Assembly: GCA_947501695.1 (NCBI GenBank)
Contig: CANMWO010000001.1
Coordinates: 1,612,001-1,676,000 of the forward strand
Direction: 5' to 3'
DNA from: an uncultured Sphingomonadaceae bacterium
GTDB taxonomy: Bacteria; Pseudomonadota; Alphaproteobacteria; Sphingomonadales; Sphingomonadaceae
DNA: 64,000 nt
Below are positions 1,586-9,241 of this stretch, in pieces. The notes beneath the pieces were generated by a model. That model was not told where the DNA came from and ran no database searches. It was given only the letters and a program-made list of their open reading frames with translations. The position numbers were made by a program, and so were the translations under genes. How positions within the stretch are numbered: position 1 is the first letter of the stretch; every line of letters starts with the position of its first letter.

Positions 1586-2551
1586 ATGCCTGATCGGGTC
1601 AAAGTCGCCGTCTTGATATCGGGCCGTGGTTCCAACATGGCCGCGCTTATATACGCTGCGAAAACAAATGACTGCCCTTATGAGATCATACTGGTGGCTT
1701 CAAATGATCCCCAGGCAGCTGGTCTGATTTTGGCCGAAGCAGAAGGCATCGCGACATTTTCACATCCCCACAAAGGCTTGAGTCGTAAAGAGCATGATCA
1801 GATCATGCATGACGCCATAACGCAGGCCGGCGCTGATTATATCACTCTCGCAGGCTATATGCGGATATTGAGCGATGATTTTGTCAGCAAATGGCAGGAT
1901 CATATGCTGAATATCCATCCCAGCCTCTTGCCGAAATACAAGGGCCTCGATACCTATCAACGCGCCTTGGATGCAAGCGATAGCCACGCCGGTTGCAGCG
2001 TTCATCTCGTAACGCCTGAACTTGATGACGGGCCGGTGTTAGCCCAGACGAAAGTGGCCATCTTGCCTAACGATACGGCCGAAATTTTGGCTGACCGTGT
2101 GCTTATAGCCGAGCATCAACTCTATCCAGCAACGCTAGCCCAATATGTCACTCGAGAGGCAGATCCCAACTGGATACTGGATCAGGTTCGCATCCGTGCG
2201 TTAGCGCTTGAAGAAACATATGAACGCCCCAGTTTTGGCACACCCGGCTGGCGCGTTGGTAGCGAAAAAACGGGAAAATATTTTGCTTATTTCTCCCAGC
2301 GGCATTTCGGCGAAATCGGTACATCTGTTTTTGTCAAGACCAGCGGTCTGGACGAACAAGGCGCGTTGCTCGATGCAGATCCAGACCTCTATTTCGCGCC
2401 CAAATTTTATGGCAAGTCAGGTTGGATTGCGATCCGCCTCGACACTGGCCGAACGGATTGGGACCATATTGCCGACTCCCTTACAAAAAGCTGGCGTATG
2501 GTTGCACCAAAGCGATTGACCCGCATAATGGATATTGCTGACGATTTTTGA
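1586..2551 (+). CDS. purN: Phosphoribosylglycinamide formyltransferase fused to an MmcQ/YjbR-like domain
   Basis: Residues 1-190 are a GART domain that formylates GAR using 10-formyl-THF. The start LISGRGSNMAAL is typical and the catalytic trio is visible: Asn109 and His111 in NIHPSLLPKYKG, and Asp147 in ELDDGPVL. Usual PurN proteins end near residue 200. This one continues to 321 with a second domain containing FGTPGWRVG, GKYFAYF, DADPDLYFAPKFYGKSGW and AIRLDTG, which fits the MmcQ/YjbR (CyaY-like) fold. The fusion recurs in sphingomonads as far as I recall; the role of the extra domain is unknown. It lies 6 bp after purM and is convergent with the LOV-HTH gene. Confidence 0.93.
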   Translation: MPDRVKVAVLISGRGSNMAALIYAAKTNDCPYEIILVASNDPQAAGLILAEAEGIATFSHPHKGLSRKEHDQIMHDAITQAGADYITLAGYMRILSDDFVSKWQDHMLNIHPSLLPKYKGLDTYQRALDASDSHAGCSVHLVTPELDDGPVLAQTKVAILPNDTAEILADRVLIAEHQLYPATLAQYVTREADPNWILDQVRIRALALEETYERPSFGTPGWRVGSEKTGKYFAYFSQRHFGEIGTSVFVKTSGLDEQGALLDADPDLYFAPKFYGKSGWIAIRLDTGRTDWDHIADSLTKSWRMVAPKRLTRIMDIADDF

Positions 2552-2559
2552 AAATATTC

Positions 2560-2656
2560 GCATCGCGGGATGGAACCAAAACCTTTTGCGACAAGGAGGA
2601 GGGAGGATATGCCGCCAAAAATTTAGTATCTGGGATGACTGCCCCATCCGCGATGC
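2560..2656. other. Possible structured element between convergent genes
   Basis: Arms GCATCGCGGGATGG (2560-2573) and CCATCCGCGATGC (2644-2656) are reverse complements apart from one bulged G and enclose about 70 bases. Inside, at about 2593-2606, lies an unusually strong purine-rich Shine-Dalgarno-like run ahead of a five-codon frame MPPKI* (ATG at 2609). The element sits just after the purN stop and may be a processed 3' structure, a terminator fold or a small RNA; the sequence alone does not say which. Confidence 0.3.
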
Positions 2657-2721
2657 TGAACAATTAGATAGCGCATCATATCATGATCAGCGATACGGCA
2701 TTTGGGCCGTAGTCGTTTTGC

Positions 2722-3378
2722 TTACATCCCTGCCTCAACCGCCAGTCGAACCATATCAGCTGCGCTCGGGGCTTCTAGCTTCTTCATTAAAATTGCGCGG
2801 TGCATCTTTATCGTACGCTCGCTCAGGCTCAGTTCGTGCGCAATTTGTTTATTTAACAACCCTTTGGCTATGAAGTTTAAGACTTCTCTTTGCCTGTTTG
2901 ATAGATCTTTGACTATCTCCGTAGCGCGCATTCGCCGTGCCTTGGCCAGGCTTGGTCGGTCGCCATCTATCTCGACCTGAGATCCCAGAAAATATTCGAG
3001 CTCGCCGCTTTCATCAAATAGGGGAGCAACCAATACGGCATTTTGAAAAGGCGTACCGTCTTTTTTATAATTTAGTATCTCGACCAGAACGGCTTTGCGC
3101 TCACGAACGCCGCGGCGAATTTCTTCTGTAAGCCATGGTTCAGTAGCGGCCCCGGCCAAGAACCTACAATTTCTGCCAACAATAAAGTCAGGCTGATAGC
3201 CAGTAAGATCGGAAAATGCTTGGTTCGAAGCCACAATGGGATTGTCAGGCAGTCTCGGATTGCTGATGACCGAAGCAATCGGACTGTTATCAATCAACGC
3301 TTTTACAGTGGTTTTGGGCAAATCAACCTTGGGGATTGATTGCTGTCCTGTTCCATTATTCCCATCCTCTGACATCAT
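2722..3378 (-). CDS. LOV-HTH blue-light transcription factor, EL222 type
   Basis: 218 residues: a short N-terminal tail, a PAS/LOV core (about 24-140) and a LuxR/FixJ-type helix-turn-helix (about 155-218). The flavin-binding LOV signature GRNCRFLAG is intact, with Cys71 as the photo-adduct cysteine. The supporting residues Asn103 (in NYKKDG), Asn113 (FQN) and Gln134 (FLGSQ) are also present. The HTH has [22 protein letters not shown] followed by [12 protein letters not shown]. Order, length and motifs match Erythrobacter EL222, in which light releases the HTH from the LOV domain so that it dimerises and activates transcription. It lies 84 bp downstream of an SDR gene on the same strand and could be co-transcribed or have its own promoter. 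Start codons ATG-ATG at 3378/3375 cannot be distinguished. Confidence 0.93.
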
Positions 3379-3462
3379 ATAGCGAACTTAGTCCATCCCG
3401 CTCCACCATGGCAAGCAGAATGCCAATATACTGCGTTACATCTATACCTCTTTTGTAAAAAG

Positions 3463-4236
3463 TTATGGGACCACGCCCTCAACTACTGATTTCGCGTTAT
3501 CAACCCTGATTGCGGCACCATTGATGAATTTCGATTCATCAGACGCTAGAAACAATACCGTGTTAGCAATGTCATCAGGCTCTCCCAAAGCACTGGCAGC
3601 TGGCCCTTCGCTAGCAGGCCGCAAATCGTCCCTACCCATCATTTTCGGTCCAATTTCTTCAACCATTGGCGTTAAGATTCCCGCGGGATGGACACTGTTG
3701 CAACGAATATTATAACCATTATTTGCGCAATGCACCGCAATGCTGCGCGATAAGCTCTCAACTGCTCCCTTGGCTGCGGCATATGCAGCAACGACTGGCT
3801 CACCCTGGATCGAGGCGATAGATGCCATATTGATTATCGAACCGCCACCAGAAGCCTTCATCGCCGGGACAGCATATTTGCACCCAAAAAATGTACCGTC
3901 GGCGCTGACCGCCATGACAAAACGCCATTCATTCGCTGTTTGTGTTTCTATGGTTCCGGGTTCAACCACGCCGGCATTATTTACCAATATATCAAGCTTT
4001 CCATGCCTTGAAACCACATCGGCAATCAAATCTTCCCAAGCCGACTCGTCGCGAACATCCTGCGTGTGGAATTCGGCTTTATCACCTATTTCAGCCGCAA
4101 CTCGGGCGCCGTTATCAGCATCCATATCGGTCAGAATCACCGTCGCCCCTTCCCGCGCAAACATCCGTGCATCAGCCTCGCCCAATCCCTTTGCTGCTCC
4201 GGTAATGATCGCTACTTTACCATCGATTCTGCCCAT
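3463..4236 (-). CDS. Short-chain dehydrogenase/reductase (SDR)
   Basis: Classical SDR of 257 residues, probably NAD(P)-dependent. It has the cofactor motif TGAAKGLG near the start, NNAG at about residue 90, a catalytic Ser in NMASIAS, and the YxxxK pair in YAAAK. The C-terminal segment ends in NGAAIRVDNAKSVVEGVVP. ATG 4236 is chosen because GAGAGGG lies six bases upstream; an upstream ATG at 4260 has no clear ribosome site. Substrate is unknown. It is transcribed divergently from the SnoaL-like gene (84 bp between starts) and is followed by the LOV-HTH regulator. That arrangement invites the idea that this pair is a target of the regulator, which is inference. Confidence 0.9.
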   Translation of the reverse strand: MGRIDGKVAIITGAAKGLGEADARMFAREGATVILTDMDADNGARVAAEIGDKAEFHTQDVRDESAWEDLIADVVSRHGKLDILVNNAGVVEPGTIETQTANEWRFVMAVSADGTFFGCKYAVPAMKASGGGSIINMASIASIQGEPVVAAYAAAKGAVESLSRSIAVHCANNGYNIRCNSVHPAGILTPMVEEIGPKMMGRDDLRPASEGPAASALGEPDDIANTVLFLASDESKFINGAAIRVDNAKSVVEGVVP

Positions 4237-4320
4237 TATCATCCCTCTCTTTTTTGCCAACTATCCATAGATTAGCAGCACATGCTACGCACTGGCCCTA
4301 ACAATATAAGGGAGAGCGGG

Positions 4321-4788
4321 ATGGATAAGGTTGATCAGCTATTGGCGCGCGAGGAAATGCGCGACTTGCTGCACCAATATTGCAAAGGCATTGATCGTCG
4401 GGATTGGTCGCTAGTTCGATCCTGCTTCGCAGATGATCATATCCACAATCATGCCGAATATTCCGGACCACCAGATGAATTTATCGGCTTTGCCAGTGAG
4501 ATACTGAAAAAAGTGCCCGCAACCCATCATTCGATTTCGAACGTCCATTTCACTTTTGGTGATGACGGTAACAGTGCGACAACCGAAGCAAATTTCGTCG
4601 CTTATCACTATATTCAGGAAGGCACGCCTGAATTTGCTCCCGTCCCAACCGACGGCAAAGCAACCGACTGGATAGTCGCTGGTCGTTATTGCGATAAATT
4701 TGAAAAGCGTGACGGAAAATGGATCATCGTTCGACGCGAGGCGTTCCATGATTGGGAACGCTATGAGGAAGCCAATCCCAAAACTTAG
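4321..4788 (+). CDS. SnoaL/NTF2-like fold protein
   Basis: 155 residues with the pattern of the SnoaL_4 / scytalone-dehydratase-like branch: REEMRDLLHQYCKGIDRRDW, then VRSCFADDHIHNHAEYSG, a central HHSISNVHF strand and the closing DRWxxV-like stretch GRYCDKFEKRDGKWIIVRREAFHDW. Members of this fold act as small hydrolases, isomerases or dehydratases, so no reaction can be named. ATG 4321 has AAGGGAGAG just upstream and is preferred over an in-frame upstream ATG at 4282. It is divergent from the SDR gene and convergent with the surface-protein gene, overlapping its stop by 4 bases. Confidence 0.85.
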   Translation: MDKVDQLLAREEMRDLLHQYCKGIDRRDWSLVRSCFADDHIHNHAEYSGPPDEFIGFASEILKKVPATHHSISNVHFTFGDDGNSATTEANFVAYHYIQEGTPEFAPVPTDGKATDWIVAGRYCDKFEKRDGKWIIVRREAFHDWERYEEANPKT

Positions 4789-6680
4789 TCTAAGCGTGCT
4801 TCAAAACTGATGGTGAAACTGGGATCATCGGTTCCATTTGAGGCAGCCAATATGCCCGACGGATTGACGATAATTCCGGTCACATTAGAATCAAACCCTG
4901 TAGCATTTGGGTCGTAACCATAGGGTGCAACGCCTGTTGGTTGAATGGAAAAATCGGCCATCGTTGATGGATCGAAACTATCCAAGCCACTCGAAGTTGC
5001 ACCATCGGTAAACATGATTGGTGACGCGCCATTATAGCTGATATTCGCAGGTAGAATGTCGGTAATCTGTATGCTGCTTGTATCGACTGGGGCATCGCCA
5101 TGATTGGTCACTTCAATCGTATAGCGTATGATCGCACCGGGAATCGCTTTCGGATTCGCGGAACCATTTACCGGGTCGAAAATCACGGCCGATTGCTTGC
5201 TGATCTGAAGCACTGCATTGGCCGGATCGCGGGTGTTTGTGATGATACAGCTGATCACATCGCCAATCGCCGGGGTAAAATCGCCACCCAATGTGATTGG
5301 CAATATCGTCGAGGAACTAGCATTAGCATTGGTACAGGACAAAGCGGCGGTATAGCGGCCAAGTTCGGTCGTTCCGCGCGCCAACTCATCAACATTATAA
5401 CTGTTGCCACTCACCAATTGCGTCATCGCGATTGGGGCGCTGCTGATAGCCGCGCCGGTACCAGCGGTTGTGCTTGCAGCAACCGTGCTGCTCCCCTCTC
5501 TTATACGAATACGAAATTCATCACTGTCAAATATCCGGCCCGCTGCGCCTAGTTGCTTTTCGAGCGATAGATGAGGATAAGCCGTGTTGTTAAACACACA
5601 TTCGACGGCATCGCCAAAGGCTAGCGATCCAAAACTATAATCTATTGTCTCGAGATTGGTCGGCATGACGGTTGGCGAGCCCGCACTATTGTTTATGCAG
5701 GTTAGCCGGGGACGATATTGGCTTAATGCGCTTGCGCTACCACTGGCCAAGACTTCGCGCAAACTGATCGGAATGCCGGATGCGGTCGAAATGACTGCGG
5801 CTGGAAATGGCCCGTTCCCTGCGCCGGTCGTTGTGCCGGATGCCAGCAGGTCGCCAGATGATGTCGACGTAATCTGAAACGTAAATTGATCAGCCGGATC
5901 AATCCGTGCGCCAGTAATGGTCTTATTCAACGTAATCGAGGCAAAGCGTACGGCAAACATCATGCCTTGTAATCCCTGTCCTCGCATCGAAGCCGTTACA
6001 TTGGTCGGCGAATCTGTACCGGCAATATAGCCGCCAACCCGGCCTGTTTGTCCACCGCCAGCCATACGCAATGTGGTTGTGCCAGTACCAGTGAGAACCG
6101 GGAATTGACTACCGCTAATTGGCGGCACAGCGTCCAATATCTGCCAATTGGAACCGTTGGTTCCAAATTCCAGAAATTCACTGTTGTCGGTCGATTCCGC
6201 GTCCGCTGCAACAAAGGCATAGCTGGTGACGGTTGCAACGCCGGGAGGCGGAACGATGGTGATGTTAGAGAAGGTGAAATCAACCAACGCGCCGCTATTG
6301 GCCATGTAAAGAATGGGCCGTCCTGGAATATTAAGAAATGACGAATTACCCACCGCCGCACCCGACCAGCTTGGTGCGGCTCGGTCGTCTGCTGCTGATG
6401 CGGTCGTGCTGGTTGCGTTGAGAGTGAAGGTTAGCTTCGATCCGTCATCTAGATCAAAGGAGAAATTTTGACCCGATGCAGAGCGAACCGCCGTGTCATT
6501 ATAGGATGAAAAATCAAGCCAACAATACGTCTGCCACGCCGCTGGAGCCGCGCCTTGTGCGCCTGCTGGAGCACAAGTGGCGGCCATGGCTGTGCCGCCG
6601 CCAAAACCGACGGCAGTCACTGCATAGATCATGATCAGCATGAAATGCTTGATAATGTGTTGCACTGGTCCTGTTCCCAC
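4785..6680 (-). CDS. Large exported CshA-type / DUF11 surface protein
   Basis: 631 residues, rich in Ser, Thr, Gly and Asn. A signal peptide ends near TAMAATCAP. Residues about 45-240 (CWLDFSSYND, FDLDDGSKLTFTL, later SFLNIPG) resemble the CshA non-repetitive adhesin domain. Two prealbumin/SpaA-like repeats follow (about 250-370 and 370-490), each closing with a Cys-containing strand (AVECVFNNT, VISCIITNT). A DUF11-like domain (about 495-631) carries IPGAIIRYTIEVTNHGDAPV and ITDILPANISYNG. No LPxTG, PEP-CTERM or barrel anchor is visible, so it may be secreted or held by another protein. The frame opens with GTG at 6680; an ATG at 6641 would give a tidier signal peptide. An adhesin role is inferred only. 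Confidence 0.82.
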   Translation of the reverse strand: MGTGPVQHIIKHFMLIMIYAVTAVGFGGGTAMAATCAPAGAQGAAPAAWQTYCWLDFSSYNDTAVRSASGQNFSFDLDDGSKLTFTLNATSTTASAADDRAAPSWSGAAVGNSSFLNIPGRPILYMANSGALVDFTFSNITIVPPPGVATVTSYAFVAADAESTDNSEFLEFGTNGSNWQILDAVPPISGSQFPVLTGTGTTTLRMAGGGQTGRVGGYIAGTDSPTNVTASMRGQGLQGMMFAVRFASITLNKTITGARIDPADQFTFQITSTSSGDLLASGTTTGAGNGPFPAAVISTASGIPISLREVLASGSASALSQYRPRLTCINNSAGSPTVMPTNLETIDYSFGSLAFGDAVECVFNNTAYPHLSLEKQLGAAGRIFDSDEFRIRIREGSSTVAASTTAGTGAAISSAPIAMTQLVSGNSYNVDELARGTTELGRYTAALSCTNANASSSTILPITLGGDFTPAIGDVISCIITNTRDPANAVLQISKQSAVIFDPVNGSANPKAIPGAIIRYTIEVTNHGDAPVDTSSIQITDILPANISYNGASPIMFTDGATSSGLDSFDPSTMADFSIQPTGVAPYGYDPNATGFDSNVTGIIVNPSGILAASNGTDDPSFTISFEARLD

Positions 6681-7783: not shown

Positions 7784-9241
7784 TTATTGCTCAAAATTAT
7801 CAGCGACATATTGGTCGAGCAATCGCACACCAAATCCCGTTGCACCCTTGTCCCAGACTGGGCCGGGCTTGTCTGCCCAGACCATACCAGCAATATCAAG
7901 ATGCGCCCATTTGACACCATCTTTGATGAATCGCTTAAGGAACTGCCCCGCGGTAATTGATCCCGCACCCTTACCACCGACATTCTTCATATCAGCAATC
8001 GGCGAGTTAATCTGCTTGTCATAGGCAGCGCTGAGCGGGAACCGCCACAGTGGATCACCGGCGGCCTTACCAGCGGCCAGCAGATTGTCCGATAAGCCAT
8101 CATCATTACTGAAGCAGCCAGCATGTTCATTACCCAGAGACACAATAATCGCTCCGGTCAGCGTCGCCAGATTGACAACGACTTCCGGTTCAAATGTCTC
8201 CTGCGTCCAATGTAAAGCATCACATAATACCAAACGCCCTTCGGCATCGGTATTAATGACTTCTATGGTCTGGCCACTCATGCTGGTCACAACATCGCCA
8301 GGACGCTGCGCATTGCCATCGGGCATATTCTCAACGAGACCACAAACGCCGATGACATGCGCCTTAGCCTTGCGACCTGCTAGGGCCTTCATCGTGCCGG
8401 CTACAGCGCCTGCACCGCCCATGTCCCATTTCATATCTTCCATGCCGCCCGGCGGCTTTAGAGAGATGCCGCCTGTATCAAAGGTCACGCCTTTGCCGAC
8501 CAGCGCCAGCGGCTTTTTCTGTGCGCCATTGGTGCCATCCCAGCGCATAGCGAGCATCCGCGGCGGACGAACCGAGCCTTGGGACACACCCAAAAGCGCC
8601 CCCATGCCGAGTTTTTCCATCTCTTCTTGGCCGAGCACCGTAAATTCGACACCCATATCCTGAAGCTCTTCACAGCGCGCAACGAAGCTTTCAGGATAAA
8701 TGACATTGGCGGGTTCAGAAACCAGTTCACGGGTCAGCGAAACGCCGTCAGCAACCGCGGACAGGTCCTGCCAGACTTGCGCTGATTCCATATCGGTATC
8801 GAGCACGGTGATAGCTTCAAGCGTTTGCTTAGCATTTTCCGGCATGGTTGTGCGATATTTATCGATTCTCCAGCTACGCAGCTTCGCACCGAATAACAGA
8901 CGCGCCAATTGATTCTGCTCAAGTCCTGCGCCGTTGATGGCAAGATGTTTCACACCTGATGCAATCAACTTAGCAACAACAGCCCCGCCAGCCGCTTCAC
9001 AATCTTTACGCTCTCCTTTGCCGATACCGGTCAGGATGATCTGAATGACGGCATCGCCCTCCGTCACAAATGTTTGAAATGTCTGCCCGGTCTTGCCTTC
9101 AAACCGTCCCGCTTTAGCCGCGGCACGAACCATGCTTGCCTGCTCGACCGATATCTCTGCACTATCCAGTCCATCTTTACTTATGGCAAAGCCGATTGCG
9201 TCTGGCGTGGAAGAAGGGCTAGCGGCAAATGTGAATTTCAT
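7784..9241 (-). CDS. pepA: Leucyl aminopeptidase, M17 family
   Basis: 485 residues. Cytosolic two-metal aminopeptidase that removes N-terminal residues from peptides. Catalytic-domain signatures are VGKGVTFDTGGISLKPP (metal ligands and catalytic Lys), MKWDMGGAGAV and the family hallmark NTDAEGRL followed by VLCDAL. The N-terminal third is the variable macro-like domain. Full length, ending in QYVADNFEQ. It is divergent from lptD, with 262 bp between them that hold both promoters and no further gene. Confidence 0.97.
   Translation of the reverse strand: MKFTFAASPSSTPDAIGFAISKDGLDSAEISVEQASMVRAAAKAGRFEGKTGQTFQTFVTEGDAVIQIILTGIGKGERKDCEAAGGAVVAKLIASGVKHLAINGAGLEQNQLARLLFGAKLRSWRIDKYRTTMPENAKQTLEAITVLDTDMESAQVWQDLSAVADGVSLTRELVSEPANVIYPESFVARCEELQDMGVEFTVLGQEEMEKLGMGALLGVSQGSVRPPRMLAMRWDGTNGAQKKPLALVGKGVTFDTGGISLKPPGGMEDMKWDMGGAGAVAGTMKALAGRKAKAHVIGVCGLVENMPDGNAQRPGDVVTSMSGQTIEVINTDAEGRLVLCDALHWTQETFEPEVVVNLATLTGAIIVSLGNEHAGCFSNDDGLSDNLLAAGKAAGDPLWRFPLSAAYDKQINSPIADMKNVGGKGAGSITAGQFLKRFIKDGVKWAHLDIAGMVWADKPGPVWDKGATGFGVRLLDQYVADNFEQ

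Follow-up and report, generated by a model that had tools for sequence, protein, structure and literature searches.

An EL222-type LOV-HTH photoreceptor gene in the window (the whole stretch of 64,000 nucleotides analysed, from an uncultured Sphingomonadaceae bacterium) is followed immediately 3′ by a candidate EL222 operator, a promoter-like sequence and a structured RNA. To judge from the sequence, the light-activated LOV-HTH protein probably drives this adjacent small RNA, and that a conserved structured RNA accompanied by an EL222-type operator is present can itself be stated with high confidence. EL222 is a much used light switch whose natural job is poorly known, and the table of one review gives its light-regulated role as only the binding of DNA consensus sequences (PMC4844311). 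The operator and promoter-like sequence, found at about three quarters of the tested relatives and in the genome of EL222 itself, offer a concrete candidate target. The features of the locus are collected in Table 1.

Table 1. Features of the LOV-HTH locus, numbered from the first nucleotide of the window
Feature	Positions	Strand	Basis or remark
LOV-HTH (EL222-type) protein, 218 aa plus stop	2722..3378	-	ORF, PDB and Pfam matches, alignment
LOV/PAS domain, residues about 26-136, with Asn103, Asn113 and Gln134 inside	2971..3303	-	PDB, Pfam
Adduct Cys71 codon, reads TGT	3166-3168	-	bases checked
GerE/LuxR-type HTH, residues 159-213	2740..2904	-	Pfam, E=1.1e-18
Putative promoter of the LOV-HTH gene: TTGCCA (3409-3414), 18 bp, TAAGTT (3385-3390)	3385..3414	-	upstream regions read by eye; bases checked
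Extended operator dyad TACGGCCCAAATGCCGTATCG	2691..2711	-	sequence match, bases checked
12-bp operator core GGCCCAAATGCC	2697-2708	-	1 mismatch to published EL222 consensus RGNCYWWRGNCY
-10-like hexamer TATCTA, TA 38 nt from operator start	2665..2670	-	bases checked
Structured RNA (predicted small RNA), about 109 nt, ends inferred	2550..2658	-	fold, covariation, model match
5′ arm of closing stem GCATCGCGG	2648..2656	-	bases checked
3′ arm of closing stem CCGCGATGC	2560..2568	-	bases checked
Apical loop AUAUCCUCCCUCCUCCUU, anti-Shine-Dalgarno-like	2593..2610	-	fold, alignment, bases checked
3′ T-rich tail GAATATTTTC of the structured RNA	within 2550..2658	-	window group, by eye
purN (formyltransferase, YjbR domain fused at the C-terminus), convergent	1586..2551	+	Pfam; stop abuts RNA 3′ end
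SDR gene	3463-4260	-	
SnoaL gene	4282-4788	+	

The LOV-HTH Protein and Its Kinship to EL222

As a protein, the window LOV-HTH is, on sequence grounds, an ordinary EL222 relative and a further member of a known family. The first-pass annotation had described it as an EL222-type LOV-HTH protein with an intact adduct cysteine and intact supporting flavin-site residues, and had proposed alignment with EL222 as a check; comparison with EL222 of Erythrobacter litoralis HTCC2594 bears out this description. The top PDB matches are EL222 (3p7n, E=7.8e-82, residues 6-218), the EL222 structure 8a5r being matched at E=1.1e-81 over residues 18-218, and the two proteins are 63% identical over residues 5-205 of the 205-residue EL222 query. 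A PAS_9 domain (residues 44-136, E=1.3e-15) is followed by the GerE HTH, which is the domain order of EL222, and the open reading frame carries the motif GRNCRFLAG, whose cysteine is residue 71. The roles of the adduct cysteine and of the flavin-binding Asn, Asn and Gln in LOV domains are well established. In an alignment of 110 sequences (the window and 109 loci retrieved by similarity), Cys71, Asn103, Asn113 and Gln134 are invariant in all 110, as are K191, M192 and H193 of the HTH core, and EL222 shares the cysteine, the flavin-site residues and the HTH core with the window protein.

The protein had also been called a second homologue of EL222; homologue it is, and the number is an understatement: when 397 genomes of the family were sampled, an EL222 query found a match at E<=1e-45 in 117. 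The genome from which the window comes (3.6 Mb, 7 contigs) encodes a single LOV-HTH of EL222 type, the six other matches covering the HTH end only.

A Candidate EL222-Type Operator behind the Stop Codon

The site 3′ of the LOV-HTH gene is a candidate EL222-type site by its sequence, and it is conserved. Its core carries one mismatch to the EL222 binding consensus, RGNCYWWRGNCY, after Rivera-Cancel 2012 (PMC10521638), and this mismatch counts against the main reading. The extended dyad is the sole match with 0 mismatches in its own genome to TACGGYCYWARNRCCGTATC, a pattern derived from the window's own group. When the DNA around LOV-HTH genes is scanned, exact consensus matches cluster right behind the LOV-HTH stop codon. 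For the operator test, 103 of the 110 loci were kept, each with distinct downstream DNA, and 77 of them have an operator with at most one mismatch within 70 nt after the stop codon (29 with 0 mismatches and 48 with 1). The corresponding frequency is 3.5% in control windows from the same loci (n=4957; 0.14% with 0 mismatches, 3.4% with 1) and about 7% in shuffled sequences (0.4% and 6.7%). Counted by group with duplicates included, the operator is present at 24 of the 26 close sequences, at 26 of the 30 rhodopsin loci and at 31 of the remaining 54.

Alignment on the operator (86 of 114 loci) yields the logo TAYGGNCCAARGNCCRTATYG, in which four columns are flattered, as ties in position were settled toward sites followed by GTAT, ATAT, ATGT or GTAG. 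A TA lies at offset 38 from the operator start in 61 of the 86 loci, and any other offset behind the dyad is taken by at most 10. If this TA is taken as part of the -10 element, the operator centre falls near -44, and a position near -44 is that of class II activators of the LuxR type. Engineered EL222 promoters of the pBLind/BLAT type likewise place the operator upstream of -35 for activation, as described in PMC9614035, and differ from the window element in being engineered, whereas the latter is natural and precedes an RNA. The natural logo, followed by TA 38 nt from the operator start, is usable for engineering.

Alone, the 12-bp consensus is useless for predicting sites genome-wide: it matches 157 times per strand in the window's own genome, and its reversed control 337 times. 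When up to 3 mismatches are allowed, the extended dyad gives nine more sites, fewer than its reversed control, the 7 forward and 3 reverse matches standing against 12 and 15. In the genome encoding EL222, the pattern derived there, searched at 2 mismatches, gives a total of 14 sites, 13 of them additional, against 11 in the control. On these counts, no further regulon is claimed beyond the adjacent site.

A Conserved Structured RNA

The window RNA is predicted to fold at -41.1 kcal/mol, with z=-4.19 and, in a second run, z=-4.56, 0 of 200 shuffles doing as well in each. Across 16 chosen loci, z ranges from -2.38 to -7.02, the locus L033 folding moderately (z=-2.38, 5/200 shuffles as good). In the alignment of the window group (A1; 24 of the 26 close-group sequences, L088 and L025 being omitted as near-duplicates), 94.0% of the cells in 22 pairs are paired, and 15 of the 22 pairs have changed on both sides. 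The covariation score of this alignment is 0.463 versus 0.279 in shuffles, of which 0/500 reach it, and at most 0.156 when the pairing is slid. Eight loop columns, TCCCTCCT within UCCUCCCUCCUCC, are invariant in the 24 sequences.

Stem sequences differ between the three groups of loci, yet their covariation behaviour is alike. Both sides have changed in 9 of 14 pairs of the Erythrobacteraceae-type alignment (A2, 16 sequences of 17 chosen loci) and in 15 of 23 pairs of the Sphingomonas-type alignment (A3, 22 of 23), L091 and L084 being omitted as atypical, and 0/500 shuffles reach the score in either; since these loci were picked partly for a visible stem, the pair counts lean toward structure. 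G-U cells number 150 and A-C cells 26, which favours the (-) strand as the RNA strand.

The covariance model R1 matches the window at 2550-2663 (93.8 bits, E=6.1e-26), the window being one of its training sequences. A search of Rfam with window positions 2540-2730 gave 0 matches at E<=5, and the element at seven further loci gave none at E<=1, nor did six loci give any at the gathering score. From these comparisons, the element looks like an undescribed, photoreceptor-linked structured RNA that matches no Rfam family.

Genes That Follow the RNA

Within the window, the structured RNA is the only thing in the operator's reach. No same-strand protein gene lies directly behind it there, the next same-strand ORF being found beyond purN and purM, and convergent purN stands directly behind the LOV-HTH gene in 24 of 25 close loci (>75% identity), with L029 as the exception.

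Among 84 more distant loci, some of which are one genome under two identifiers, 30 have a same-strand rhodopsin gene behind the LOV-HTH gene and 2 a divergent one, and a Blh-like gene is also present in 29 of the 30 same-strand rhodopsin loci. Pfam, run on one representative each, identifies Bac_rhodopsin (E=2.9e-39) and beta-carotene 15,15′-dioxygenase (E=1e-41). Rhodopsin (PF01036) was matched in 28 of 199 sampled genomes, and none was found in the window's own genome. At the divergent loci, L109 and L111, about 230 bp separate rhodopsin from the LOV-HTH gene, and the DNA behind the latter holds no operator with fewer than 3 mismatches. Elsewhere, the RNA is followed on its own strand by the gene for a flavin amine-oxidase-like protein (L052, L059/L094) or for a DCC1-like thiol-disulfide protein (L071, L074), each identified by Pfam in one representative; these are possible further light-controlled genes.

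Such loci bring up the reading that the operator serves the downstream protein genes (rhodopsin-blh, the FAD oxidoreductase, the DCC1-like gene) and that the RNA is merely their 5′ leader. The same-strand rhodopsin loci and their high operator count fit it, as do the FAD oxidoreductase that follows in 3 loci (two of them sharing downstream DNA) and the lack, by eye, of a T-run behind the RNA at protein-gene loci. Convergent purN comes next in the window and in 24 of the 25 close loci, which nevertheless retain operator, -10, structure and loop, and a leader function as the whole explanation is unlikely.

The rhodopsin loci also bear on a published annotation. In the xanthorhodopsin-blh cluster of Sphingomonas AAP5, as described in PMC7762795, the neighbouring gene is called a histidine kinase. 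In S. glacialis (L060, L062), the gene before rhodopsin-blh is an EL222-type LOV-HTH (8001-8573), whose open frame is only 262 or 228 codons, so that the label beside the AAP5 xanthorhodopsin may, by analogy, misname an EL222-type receptor. A blue-light receptor gene, rhodopsin and blh stand together in the AAP5 cluster as they do in the S. glacialis loci, and rhodopsin genes in Sphingomonas are tied to the EL222-type receptor by shared loci.

Operator and RNA as One Unit

The coupling of operator and RNA was assessed in a version that did not choose loci for a visible stem. From 138 loci (the window, the 109 and 28 from the EL222-query search), 114 have distinct downstream DNA, and a stem was counted as strong when it reached the 95th percentile of 384 control windows. 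Operator and strong stem occur together in 69 loci, operator only in 17, stem only in 5 and neither in 23 (Fisher p=4e-9, p-values being overstated by the relatedness of the loci). Some of the 45 loci without one or both parts fail by the strict thresholds, and in some the elements are truly absent.

The distance from operator to stem has a median of 45.5 with an SD of 2.9, versus an SD of 9.0 for the operator position, and the positions of operator and stem correlate with r=0.946, from which it follows that operator, -10 and RNA behave as one unit floating behind the stop codon. These figures bear on the view that the dyad and stems form a terminator or 3′-UTR stabiliser of LOV-HTH (and purN) and have no light role. 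A position right after the stop codon, a palindromic dyad and a T-rich tail in the window group would suit such an element; against it, the dyad fits the EL222 site with a -10-like TA at fixed spacing and tracks the RNA rather than the stop codon, and a terminator does not need an unpaired loop whose 8-nt core is invariant. A terminator or stabiliser is accordingly improbable, and the reading of a promoter-driven small RNA is retained below. The operator match, spacing, structure, conservation and strand are all supported by the sequence.

The RNA is also linked to its photoreceptor gene across genomes. The window-group model matches 30 of 32 genomes of the genus, several of which supplied training sequences, and the best match lies beside LOV-HTH in 30/30 and beside purN in 29; the exception (L029/L175, the same DNA) keeps the RNA with LOV-HTH and not with purN. 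The 2 genomes in which the model found no match are drafts of 240 and 490 contigs. Weak matches unlinked to the gene occur in G404 (E=0.047) and G375 (E=0.094), in 10 genus genomes the model also gives a weak match to the opposite strand of the same site, and the window's own genome holds one RNA copy, two further matches being at chance level (E>4). Because the model finds the other groups barely or never (L059/L094, E=0.0027; L056, E=0.76; others none), the proposed kinship of the RNAs across groups rests on position and architecture.

The Locus of EL222 Itself

The downstream arrangement of operator and RNA seen in the window is also present in G208, the genome encoding the EL222 query at 100% identity. 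A perfect consensus site, GGGCCAAGGTCC, lies 50 nt behind the EL222 stop codon, and G208 has no other exact match to GGNCCWWRGTCCATAT. A TA at the same offset as in other loci lies in GGCCTAGG, and the stem-loop after it carries CCTCCTGTCCCTCC and has the loop CCUCCUGUCCCUCC. The RNA of this locus folds moderately (z=-2.66, 2/200 shuffles as good), and the downstream context is unlike that of the window, where convergent purN follows. The natural 'peak B' site known from the literature maps to another part of G208, at C1:1115111, and EL222 is encoded about 132 kb away from it.

The Upstream Side of the LOV-HTH Gene

The putative -10 of the LOV-HTH gene ends 6 nt ahead of its ATG, and in 19 of the 26 close sequences a TA precedes the start by exactly 12 nt. 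Because the putative -10 is so near the ATG, the LOV-HTH mRNA may be leaderless in the close group, and such an mRNA would be expected to escape its own RNA. No EL222 operator was found in this putative promoter (3385-3414). Autoregulation through an upstream operator was considered on account of a half-site, AGTCC, beside the -10, and was rejected, as the 70 nt before the LOV-HTH start hold an operator with 0 mismatches in 0/103 loci and with 1 mismatch in 2/103.

The first-pass annotation had proposed that the adjacent SDR and SnoaL genes could help to define the regulon, and both neighbours are indeed present. The SDR gene is adjacent on the same strand, directly upstream, in 15 of 25 close loci; it is further off, elsewhere in the retrieved DNA, in 7, and none was seen in 3, one of which, L089, was retrieved with just 1.5 kb of flank. 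Among the close loci, L011 and L088 are near-duplicates. No operator with up to 1 mismatch occurs in window positions 3300-5000, which cover SDR, SnoaL and the DNA between, and the LOV-HTH gene's own promoter-like sequence sits between. Control of SDR and SnoaL by the LOV-HTH protein is therefore very unlikely. A candidate target is nevertheless indicated by the neighbourhood, on the opposite side of the gene, where operator, promoter-like sequence and structured RNA form the conserved unit.

Proposed Mechanism and the Anti-Shine-Dalgarno-Like Loop

We infer transcription, light activation, direct binding and action in trans, in the following order. Given the identity to EL222 and the invariant residues, blue light would form the Cys71-flavin adduct and free the HTH, and the resulting dimer would bind DNA. 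Its conserved target would be the promoter that directly follows the LOV-HTH gene itself, where a dimer on the dyad, centred about 44 bp before the presumed start, would occupy the class II position of LuxR-type activators and recruit RNA polymerase to a promoter with a -10 and no clear -35. The predicted product is the small RNA, in which a closing 5′-3′ stem and an internal stem would present the loop CCUCCCUCCUCC for pairing with Shine-Dalgarno sequences, so that in blue light the RNA would repress the translation of those mRNAs whose ribosome sites match it. The same promoter would, in other lineages, stand before a rhodopsin-blh operon, a FAD oxidoreductase or another gene, the RNA serving there also as a leader.

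The step from loop to targets is the weakest, and an anti-Shine-Dalgarno action in trans of the light-activated RNA is put at a little under an even chance. It is proposed from the frequency of CCTCC, which occurs in 61 of 86 RNAs versus 5.4% of controls and 6/86 opposite strands, and from precedents. C-rich loops of Rhizobiales sRNAs have been described as anti-Shine-Dalgarno (PMC3927594), and in Caulobacter a 10-mer of anti-Shine-Dalgarno signature in the sRNA SisA is thought to repress many mRNAs (PMC12559287). In the account of PMC3927594, the CCUCCUCCC loops of SmelA075 and SmelA099 are C-rich anti-Shine-Dalgarno hairpin loops, as in the window RNA, but each of these sRNAs has three or four hairpins with the motif, whereas the window RNA has a closing stem and one large C-rich apical loop and so falls outside that group; unlike them, it adjoins a photoreceptor gene and has no Rfam match. 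Outside the close group, 25 of 62 loci have no CCTCC. Neither CCTCC nor a 10-nt pyrimidine run is present at 21 loci, 15 of them rhodopsin loci, and at these rhodopsin loci the RNA may be a leader instead. In the window's own genome, the loop complement has no second match with up to 1 mismatch, and none of five 2-mismatch target sites precedes a frame of more than 18 codons. That the element encodes a small peptide is most unlikely, since an ATG on the RNA strand in the window is offset by a reading frame that, by eye, is not kept (L008 has a stop two codons in) and by changes that follow base pairs.

If the proposal holds, a one-protein photoreceptor directly switches on a small RNA, and blue light would act on translation as well as on transcription. 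It is an even question whether the ancestral EL222-type output was such a small RNA behind the receptor's own gene, making a self-contained blue-light riboregulator across Sphingomonadales, including the genome of EL222, to which rhodopsin-retinal and redox genes would have been added later. In the literature searched, which did not extend to Rivera-Cancel 2012 and Kopejtka 2022, no description of a small RNA beside EL222 or of EL222-type control of rhodopsin was recognised.

Two loci carry a second LOV-HTH, about 60% identical, before rhodopsin (L025, 977-1546, -; L027, 5270-5839, -), within 9 kb of the orthologue of the window gene; behind this second copy, no operator was clear by eye at either locus. 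The window itself encodes a large surface protein (4785-6680, -) in which Pfam finds CshA_NR2, two stretches of SpaA_3 and a match to DUF11; L027 has LOV-HTH, rhodopsin and blh genes between NDK and SnoaL in place of this protein.
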